Assembly: GCF_000158955.1 (NCBI RefSeq)
Contig: NZ_GG657757.1
Span: 1,271,331 to 1,335,330 of the forward strand
DNA length: 64,000 nucleotides
Reading direction: 5' to 3'
Source of the DNA: Streptomyces viridochromogenes DSM 40736
Lineage (GTDB): Bacteria > Actinomycetota > Actinomycetes > Streptomycetales > Streptomycetaceae
The notes under the pieces were generated by a model. The model ran no database searches. It worked only from the letters and a program-made list of their open reading frames with translations, and was not told the DNA's origin. The translations under genes and the position numbers were made by a program. Of this stretch, positions 22,648-25,214 are shown piece after piece; the stretch's first letter is position 1, and each line of letters starts with the position of its first letter.

Positions 22648-22731
22648 GAGTCCCGGCAGGCGCGCGGTGGAACCGGCGCGGGTGTGGTCGCGTGTTGAAC
22701 CACGTAAGTGATCACATCCGAAGGGACCACT

Positions 22732-23632
22732 GTGCACACCAACGGATTACGTCCGTCCCGCCGTGCGGCCCTCGTGCTGGGCACGGCCGCCGCTCTCGCG
22801 GCGGGCGGCGGCACGGCCTTCGCGTCACCCGGCACGGGCGGCGTCACCGCGCGGCTCCGGGAGATCGAGCAGGAGCACACCGCCCGGCCTGGGCGTGTAC
22901 GCGCGGAACCTGCGCACGGGCCGGACGGTGACGTACCGGGCCGCCGAACGCTTCCCGATGGCCTCGGTGTTCAAGACGCTCGCCGTTGCCGCCGTCCTGC
23001 GCGACCTCGACCGCGACGGCGAGTTCCTGGCCCGGCGCATCCACTACACCCAGGACTACGTCACCGAGTCGGGCTTCTCCCCCGTCACCGAGGACCACGT
23101 CGCGACCGGCATGACCGTGGGCGAACTGTGCGACGCCACCATCCGCTTCAGCGACAACACCGCGGGCAACCTGCTCCTGAAGGAGCTGGGCGGGCCGACC
23201 GCCGTCACGCGCTTCTGCCGCTCGGTCGGTGACCGCGTCACCCGGCTCGACCGCTGGGAGCCCGAGCTCAACTCCGCGGAGCCCTGGCGCGTGACCGACA
23301 CGACCTCCCCGCGCGCCATCGGCCTGACCTACGCCCGGCTGGTGCTCGGCGACGTGCTTGAGCCCCGGGACAGGGCCCGGCTCACGGACTGGCTGCTGCG
23401 CAACACGACCAGCATCGACAGGTTCCGCAAGGGCCTGCCCGCCGACTGGCTGCTCGCCGACAAGACGGGTGGCGGACAGTACGGCAGCAACAACGACGTG
23501 GGCATCACCTGGCCGCCGGACGGCCCGCCGATCGTGATGTCCGTCCTGACCACCCAGCCGGAGGAGGACGCCCCGGCCGACAACCCGCTGGTGGCCGAGA
23601 CGGCCGCGCTGCTGGCGGCGGAACTCGGCTAG
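22732..23632 (+). pseudogene. Class A beta-lactamase gene broken by a +1 frameshift
   Basis: Translation from the GTG at 22732 (GAAGGG upstream) gives a Tat-type signal peptide (RPSRRAALVLGTAAALAAGGG) and then leaves frame near 22888. From there the rest of the enzyme continues in the next frame: SVFK (active-site SXXK), SDN, the Glu of RWEPELN (omega-loop E166 equivalent) and DKTGGG (KTG). Removing one C from GGCCTGGG at about 22886-22893 restores ...EHTARLGVYARN and a ~299-residue protein with every catalytic motif. It is therefore either a recent pseudogene or a base-calling error; the otherwise intact sequence favours error or very recent loss. Confidence 0.85.
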
Positions 23633-24459: not shown

Positions 24460-24834
24460 TCACAGGCTCCACTGACGCAGCTCCTGCTCGATGTCCCGCA
24501 CCGACGCCTCGCCGCTCTTGACCAGCCGGGCGAGGTCACGGACCTGCTCGGGCGAGGTGACGACCTTGGCGCCGCCGGCGACGAGGTACGCGTAGGCCAC
24601 GGCGGAGGCGAACAGGGCGTTGGAGCGTTCCAGCGCGGGGACGTGGATCAGGAGCTGGAGCAGCGCGGCGGCTCGGGCGTGGGGGCTGTCGTAGACGGGG
24701 ACGTCGAATATCTCGGCCTGGTGGCGTGCGACGGCGGCGACGAGGGCTCCCCAGTCGGTGACCTGGGGGTCTCCCGGGGTCTTCTGCTCGGCGAGCATCA
24801 GCAGCCAGGCGAGGTCGATCTCGAGGTTGTCCAA
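24460..24834 (-). CDS. Degenerate Fic/Doc-like protein, putative toxin of an RHH-linked pair
   Basis: 124 residues. The region DSPHARAAALLQLLIHVPALERSNALFASAVAYAYLVAGG (50-88) aligns with the core of Doc/Fic toxins, where the motif is HxFx(D/E)xNxR. Here it reads PALERSNAL: the catalytic His position is P66 and the Arg position is L74, and only N72 is kept. AMP- or phosphate-transfer by the canonical mechanism therefore looks impossible. Similar Streptomyces proteins are annotated as Fic-family toxin components. It starts 4 bases after the ribbon-helix-helix gene, the usual antitoxin-toxin arrangement. Activity, if any, is unproven. Confidence 0.75.
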   Translation of the reverse strand: MDNLEIDLAWLLMLAEQKTPGDPQVTDWGALVAAVARHQAEIFDVPVYDSPHARAAALLQLLIHVPALERSNALFASAVAYAYLVAGGAKVVTSPEQVRDLARLVKSGEASVRDIEQELRQWSL

Positions 24835-24838
24835 GGGT

Positions 24839-25078
24839 TCAGTGGCGACCTTCGCGCGTGCCCTCGCGGTCCGGGCCGAATTCCTCGGCGAAGACCGACT
24901 CGTACTGCTTCATGAAGTCGGCGGCGGCCTCCACGAAGGTGTGACCCACCTCGCCGGTGTCCTGCCTGACCAGCTCCTCGATGTAGCGGTTGACGCTCAT
25001 GCCGCGGGCCAGGGCGCGTTCGCGGGCGGCTCGGGCGGTGCCCTCGTCGACTCGCACGTTCAGCTGGGTCTTCGCCAT
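24839..25078 (-). CDS. Ribbon-helix-helix antitoxin-like protein
   Basis: 79 residues from the ATG at 25078. The N-terminal MAKTQLNVRVDEGTARAARERALARGMSVNRYIEELVRQD is a ribbon-helix-helix DNA-binding domain. The rest (EAAADFMKQYESVFAEEFG) is an acidic amphipathic tail of the sort that binds a toxin. Two GCTAGC palindromes lie 8-30 bases upstream of the start, consistent with autoregulation. It is followed by the Fic-like gene in the same operon. Confidence 0.85.
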   Translation of the reverse strand: MAKTQLNVRVDEGTARAARERALARGMSVNRYIEELVRQDTGEVGHTFVEAAADFMKQYESVFAEEFGPDREGTREGRH

Positions 25079-25086
25079 ACCTCGAA

Positions 25087-25107
25087 GCTAGCGCGTAGGT
25101 GCTAGCA
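25087..25107. promoter_or_regulatory. Paired GCTAGC palindromes, operator for the RHH/Fic-like pair
   Basis: GCTAGC occurs at 25087-25092 and again at 25101-25106 (14-base spacing); the second is extended to TGCTAGCA. Tandem short palindromes next to the start codon are typical operators for ribbon-helix-helix antitoxins. The site also lies in the divergent promoter of the ABC transporter genes at 25215. Confidence 0.6.
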
Positions 25108-25214
25108 CCGGCAAGGCCGGGGCTCCGACGCGCGGAGGATACCGGGTGTGGGCCGGGTCACATTACGCTCGAGCGGGGCGGGGAAGTCCTGACGTCCACC
25201 CCGAGGAGGCGGCC

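Follow-up and report, generated by a model that had tools for sequence, protein, structure and literature searches.

Introduction

P1 Doc, an EF-Tu kinase of the PF02661 family, can either help to repress phd-doc or relieve its repression, according to the ratio of Doc to Phd (PMC4803016, PMC3920265; the literature cited here is quoted from excerpts). Entry 3dd7 is a crystal of the H66Y form of Doc with Phd. The Phd-Doc system of Enterococcus faecalis is described as having toxin dimers and one palindrome (PMC13034048), and two phd/doc-type loci were proposed in Streptomyces coelicolor (PMC3303803). The locus considered here lies in 64,000 nucleotides of Streptomyces viridochromogenes DSM 40736 (NCBI RefSeq assembly GCF_000158955.1, contig NZ_GG657757.1, positions 1,271,331 to 1,335,330), referred to as the window. 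Its first gene encodes a ribbon-helix-helix (RHH)-like protein, a putative antitoxin, and its second gene a Doc-like protein, termed pseudo-Doc. Database names suggest a Fic/Doc enzyme; the sequence has none of the aligned residues for that chemistry, even so, the protein is maintained by selection along with its partner and the operator in front of them. No published description of this RHH/pseudo-Doc family was found in the open-licence PMC literature, and the excerpts of PMC2701414 and PMC3303803 contain none. The explanation we favour, tentatively and with a probability of about 0.45, is a self-regulated, non-enzymatic switch in which the Doc-like protein would be a co-repressor and scaffold, acting by binding.

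An erased active site

When the second protein is aligned with P1 Doc, H66 is replaced by P, D70 by R, K73 by A and R74 by L, and N72 is kept. The protein lacks the HxFx(D/N)(A/G)NKR motif of Fic/Doc, and a histidine is found at this position in none of 104 orthologues. P66, A67, L68, E69 and N72 are invariant in the same 104 loci. Eighty of these (the named loci) rank highest among 389 and were picked with peptide patterns that include LIHVPALE, so that conservation of the motif is biased there; the other 24, collected from 61 genomes without pattern choice, all read PALE..N as well. A sequence-only reading of this DNA had claimed loss of the catalytic histidine (P66) and arginine (L74). Both losses are borne out, and the residues aligned with Doc D70 and K73 differ too. 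Without the aligned Fic catalytic residues, the second protein likely works by binding, not by chemistry, as far as its sequence indicates. The same reading had proposed a non-canonical mode of action, and this follows well from what is set out below, because an entire clade, with a distinct set of conserved residues, has the loss of the motif fixed.

How firm are the labels RHH and Fic/Doc? No Pfam or NCBIfam model matches either protein above cut-off. The first protein has weak matches below cut-off to HicB, RHH_1 and CopG_antitoxin, and no Phd/YefM-type family is present among its Pfam and NCBIfam matches up to E 1; its ribbon, KTQLNVRV, is invariant from K3 to V10 in the 104 loci. No Pfam family, PF02661 included, matches the second protein up to E 1, nor does PF02661 match anything in the source genome at E 0.001. 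A Fic/Doc fold is predicted for the second protein, and a search of solved structures by profile gave Doc as its match, with Fic-1 and AvrB far weaker; used as a single sequence, the protein gave nothing meaningful. Its relatives carry database names such as 'fic family toxin-antitoxin system, toxin component' and 'prophage maintenance system killer protein'. The labels, which the sequence-only reading had also used, stand because of the alignment with relatives and the predicted fold; they have no family match above cut-off behind them.

An RHH-like open reading frame precedes the second gene in all 104 orthologous loci, which suggests an antitoxin-first two-gene operon. Four nucleotides separate the two genes in the window, and likewise in 70 loci.

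The degenerate clade

Among 188 different relatives, N72 is kept in all, whereas the histidine is kept in 36 and gone in 152. The motifs of the degenerate groups read PALExxN, (R/K)PLPxxN, RPFxxYN and RWLERSN. In a tree of 38 rows, five canonical proteins, two of them on long branches, are split from 33 degenerate ones with support 100/100. Outside Streptomycetaceae, complete loss of the motif was met in no loci other than four that were read from a second family of the order.

A plasmid-type relative used as query found a match in 41 of 148 genomes across the class, 11 of them Streptomyces. Nineteen loci were read from the 30 other genomes: 16 have the histidine and the rest of the motif, three have lost the histidine alone, and an RHH-like upstream open reading frame was seen in 16. 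The three are otherwise canonical actinobacterial Docs, one with NPALVDGNKR (L177) and two with NRALVDGNKR (L187, L191). Because the histidine is missing from an otherwise canonical motif in these, it has been lost more than once, and once by an identical His-to-Pro change.

Could the degenerate clade have put something new in place of the old site? W10 is present in 19, H38 in 18, Y83 in 19 and W122 in 19 of 20 degenerate-clade representatives, and in 0, 0, 0 and 5, respectively, of 22 canonical ones; the K/R rule that sorted the relatives into 150 'degenerate' and 38 'canonical' proteins misfiled L047, which keeps the histidine, among the 20 representatives, and counted L177, L187 and L191 as canonical. 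These gained residues keep alive the idea of a re-tooled enzyme, whose FIC loop would be non-catalytic and in which N72 and the conserved R37-H38, located where the flap begins, would belong to a new site on that fold for another chemistry. This we consider rather unlikely: it has no known substrate, and W10, Y83 and W122 perhaps only pack the core. Doubtful as well is the broader proposal that a Doc clade erased its FIC site and built a new conserved site (W10, R37-H38 and Y83, W122, with N72 kept) on the same fold, the invariant histidine having left the FIC loop for the base of the flap. If true, nearly every Streptomyces and many of its plasmids would carry a function that is new in its chemistry or in its binding, still wired as a toxin-antitoxin operon.

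Operator and predicted promoter

All 104 loci have a tandem GCTAGC-N8-GCTAGC at 8-9 bp ahead of the first gene, and their 574 kb contain no other. Its presence there is more than chance. The window contains three GCTAGC sites against 8.8 expected from shuffles, and two of the three are the boxes of the tandem. The claim of a toxin-antitoxin-like operon with a paired operator, made from the letters of the window, is upheld in that both open reading frames, the 4-nt gap and the boxes are as described and the tandem recurs throughout.

The proximal box overlaps a -10-like hexamer in each of the 104 loci, TAGCTT in 59 and TAGCGT in 45, both of the form TANNNT (Table 1). At least 87 of the loci (12 commonest types counted) also have a TTGCC hexamer, with TAGCNT following 17-18 nt downstream. 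The position of the -10-like hexamer relative to the ATG predicts a leaderless mRNA and a promoter covered by the putative operator. A palindromic operator over the promoter, a trait of type II toxin-antitoxin systems, would be represented here by the GCTAGC tandem over the predicted promoter.

Two other roles of the tandem were considered. Control of a divergent ABC transporter is disfavoured, as the 15 loci among the 104 that have no ABC ATPase match retain the tandem, although some of these loci are short. A regulon finds no support in the exact and one-mismatch places: the exact tandem occurs once in the 8.65-Mb source genome, with a single further place at one mismatch. Within two mismatches the pattern has 152 places against 965 for a reversed control pattern, a comparison that is uninformative on a regulon. 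The one-mismatch place is a run of 7-bp repeats, GCTAGGT (G000:C1:80050-80076; L132 about 1490-1520). In another genome, three overlapping matches to the tandem pattern form a 14-bp repeat array distant from the pair (G108:C147:67934-67981).

Table 1. Features of the RHH/pseudo-Doc locus, in window positions
Feature	Position	Strand	Basis or remark
First gene, RHH-like, putative antitoxin	24839..25078	-	Open reading frame, 79 aa, ATG start
Second gene, pseudo-Doc	24460..24834	-	Open reading frame, 124 aa, TTG start
Degenerate FIC motif PALERSNAL, residues 66-74 of second protein	24613..24639	-	Alignment to P1 Doc
Proximal GCTAGC box, overlapping -10-like hexamer	25087..25092	.	Part of tandem common to 104/104 loci
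Distal GCTAGC box, 14 bp from proximal box	25101..25106	.	Part of tandem common to 104/104 loci
-10-like hexamer TAGCTT, ending 6 nt before ATG	25085..25090	-	TANNNT resemblance; predicted leaderless start
-35-like hexamer TTGCCG	25109..25114	-	Consensus resemblance only

Conservation and selection in Streptomyces

A search of 199 Streptomyces genomes, made without pattern choice, found the second gene in 125, in one copy each and with no internal stop in the matched stretch (E up to 1e-40). The first gene is present in all 125 and, as a fragment, in one more (G196), so the second gene is never alone among the 199; side-by-side placement of the two was examined in the 104 loci. The exact operator is found in 127 genomes, once in 113 and at more than one place in 14. 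Gene and operator occur together in 124 genomes, the gene only in one (G136, where the operator is present with one mismatch), the operator only in three (G012, G144, G200) and neither in 71; the operator is lacking in 71 of the 74 genomes without the second gene. Among the operator places listed (75 in 63 genomes), 62 are within 460 bp of an orthologue and 13 elsewhere. The operator and the pair are kept, and lost, as a unit. The only genome with the first gene alone contains a decayed module (L229, G196:C1:1208400-1210600), with GCTGGC at both boxes and interrupted genes.

The ratio of nonsynonymous to synonymous substitutions (dN/dS, by NG86, which is rough on GC-rich codons) has a median of 0.225 for the second gene and 0.182 for the first in 103 loci, one locus that ends at a contig edge (L024) being left out. 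For the 23 loci that are complete and were collected without pattern choice, the medians are 0.243 and 0.198. Pooled pN/pS is 0.134 for residues 63-76 of the second protein, 0.309 for its rest and 0.77 for the antitoxin tail. Both genes are, by these sequence measures, under purifying selection, and the earlier supposition that selection maintains the pair, for which a dN/dS computation had been suggested, agrees with medians of 0.18-0.24. Scattering of the homologues into pseudogenes, named in the sequence-only reading as an outcome that would speak against it, was not seen, since 125 of 199 genomes have the gene without internal stops and one decayed copy was met. Is the locus then no more than the remnant of a Doc module in decay, kept by chance or through neighbouring genes? 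The missing FIC residues and the decayed copy in G196 would suit such a relic. It is contradicted by the dN/dS medians, to be compared with the 0.77 of the antitoxin tail, by the intact second gene in 125 genomes and by an operator invariant in 104 loci, and we give it hardly any credence.

The neighbourhood is stable. A match to the neighbouring methyltransferase is present in 79 of the 80 named loci and 21 of the 24 others, and one to the ABC ATPase in 73 and 16, respectively. The chromosomal copy is syntenic by these neighbours and apparently vertical. A broader profile that includes five canonical rows finds 190 of the 199 genomes, both kinds being counted together, and 154 have canonical PF02661 proteins, whatever their size. 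Elsewhere in the window, at 22708-23632, a serine beta-lactamase-like gene (PF13354) has its signal-peptide and catalytic parts in different frames and may be a pseudogene or reflect a sequencing error.

Plasmid copies and paralogues

The window protein matches 115 plasmid records, 109 of them from Streptomyces. The plasmid-type relative matches 147 records, of which 142 are Streptomyces and the remaining five belong to genera of the Streptomycetaceae; a canonical Streptomyces Doc query matches 557 records, 34 of them Streptomyces. In four plasmid loci a small upstream gene, annotated only as hypothetical, precedes pseudo-Doc, and three of them have a gene for a primase/polymerase, dnaE or partition no more than about 3 kb away. 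The best plasmid match of the window protein (78.7%) is on a 578-kb plasmid and has the chromosomal neighbourhood (bioD, ABC genes). This linear Streptomyces plasmid carries a bioA-bioD-methyltransferase-pair-ABC block of chromosomal type (L198, NZ_CP139046.1 11815-20180), which looks like an exchange of DNA between the plasmid and a chromosome arm. A phage origin was also considered, and no match was found among 50,697 phage records at E 0.01, viral contigs being outside the search.

Plasmid carriage is why another explanation stays alive, that of a binding toxin. Free pseudo-Doc would block a target unmodified, possibly the ancestral translation target, the RHH protein would neutralise it, and on plasmids the pair would be an addiction module. 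The antitoxin-first layout of the 104 loci, a second gene never found without the first, the excess of plasmid records from Streptomyces for the plasmid-type relative over the canonical query and the replication or partition genes near three of four plasmid pairs all suit this proposal. The syntenic, apparently vertical chromosomal copy is unlike a typical addiction module, however, and the residues known for Doc toxicity are gone. We regard a binding toxin as unlikely.

The source genome holds three pairs of the family, the window pair and two paralogues. One paralogue, at 8.15 Mb (L032, G000:C1:8153700-8156076), is a second conserved RHH/pseudo-Doc pair with motif RPLPSANARF. Its group has the RHH ribbon PALNVEF and a tandem of its own, GTAC-N7-GTAC, in 18 of the 20 starts recognised in 27 loci supplied. 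The third pair (L031, G000:C1:12496-14852), 13.5 kb from the contig start, has motif RCRWLERSNLT, and no upstream tandem palindrome was seen. Ribbon and operator differ together between groups, a pattern that would fit RHH proteins each specific for an operator of their own. Might the chromosomal pair instead blunt related plasmid-borne RHH/Doc modules, as an anti-addiction or cross-neutralising device? Related pairs are frequent on Streptomyces plasmids, and three family pairs share the source genome; but the RHH parts and operators have diverged between groups, which favours specificity over cross-talk, and the C-terminal parts of the antitoxins differ as well. Such a device seems improbable.

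Predicted complex

In 32 loci both genes are in frame across a TGA, and the read-through chain was used to represent the complex. For L054 (second protein 97% identical) the antitoxin helix of the model spans residues 42-67, with a mean pLDDT of 82 in residues 41-50, 90 in 51-60 and 71 in 61-70, and the linked-chain model puts this C-terminal helix on the Doc fold. The structural alignment with FICD lengthens from 118 residues for the second protein alone to 128-130 for the linked chain, starting from antitoxin residue 54 against FICD 225-226, presumably the region of the FICD inhibitory helix. The antitoxin helix is thus predicted to dock near the site of the Fic inhibitory helix, and the antitoxin would guard an active site that no longer exists. 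The linked-chain model fits a complex of both proteins, but is no proof of one.

A possible switch

The favoured explanation, the self-regulated switch, can be laid out in steps. A complex of both proteins would occupy the GCTAGC tandem that overlaps the predicted promoter of its own genes, RHH dimers binding both boxes. Pseudo-Doc would bridge or stabilise these dimers as co-repressor, by analogy with Doc and Phd, and an altered ratio of the two proteins would open the promoter. Free pseudo-Doc may then have an output through binding some partner; this last step is proposed because a purely self-regulating loop should not be kept. In the simplest reading, pseudo-Doc would keep the regulatory half of the work of Doc and would have lost the kinase half. 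The linkage of operator and pair, the co-occurrence of the genes, purifying selection and a paralogue group with another ribbon and another tandem are in favour of the switch. So are the overlap of the boxes with the -10-like hexamer, the helix placement in the linked-chain model, the regulatory role of Doc itself and the Doc H66Y crystal with Phd.

Several points weigh against it. Self-regulation alone gives no reason for strong selection or for 147 plasmid records, and an addiction toxin fits these at least as well. The exact operator is unique in the source genome and does not point to a regulon as the output. Binding to DNA and a complex of the two proteins are putative. H38 and other residues newly conserved in the clade might be part of a new active site. 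The RHH domain, finally, is poorly predicted: the linked-chain model has an extended N-terminus followed by helices at 12-24 and 29-40 at low confidence, with a pLDDT of 31 in residues 1-10 and 60-68 in 11-40, and the RHH-family matches are those below cut-off.

What is the role of a toxin-antitoxin pair once the enzyme of the toxin is gone? The locus makes this question testable in soil bacteria that are harmless and comes with ready controls, namely the near-absolute link between operator and pair, a copy that decayed in nature and a paralogue whose operator is different.

Comparison with known systems

Measured against P1 Phd-Doc, the present system has lost H66, D70, K73 and R74 and its match to PF02661, and its first gene is RHH-like where P1 has Phd. 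AvrB, a Fic-like effector compared by name and structure only, is plant-directed, larger and from an unrelated genetic setting.

Among Fic proteins with altered motifs, FicT/FicA of Escherichia coli is likewise a vertically kept pair with a deviating Fic motif, for which a new function is proposed, but FicT is a Fic protein whose partner has an inhibitory motif and whose own motif is only partly changed (PMC5033356). Fic2 of Campylobacter fetus has a degenerate motif in a toxin-antitoxin setting, but keeps the histidine, which is required for toxicity (PMC5651007). A Doc subclade with an Asp to Asn change also misses a catalytic residue and is possibly inactive; according to the excerpt one residue is changed there, whereas H, D, K and R are all changed here (PMC4454073).

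Closest are the canonical actinobacterial RHH-Doc pairs (L044, L045, L049, L175). They share the gene order, the RHH-like upstream open reading frame and a gap-poor alignment over the whole toxin. They differ in that they keep NHALVDGNKR and match PF02661, and their antitoxin tails end in NRRLA or EALERLGQ, whereas the tails of the present family are acidic and aromatic.
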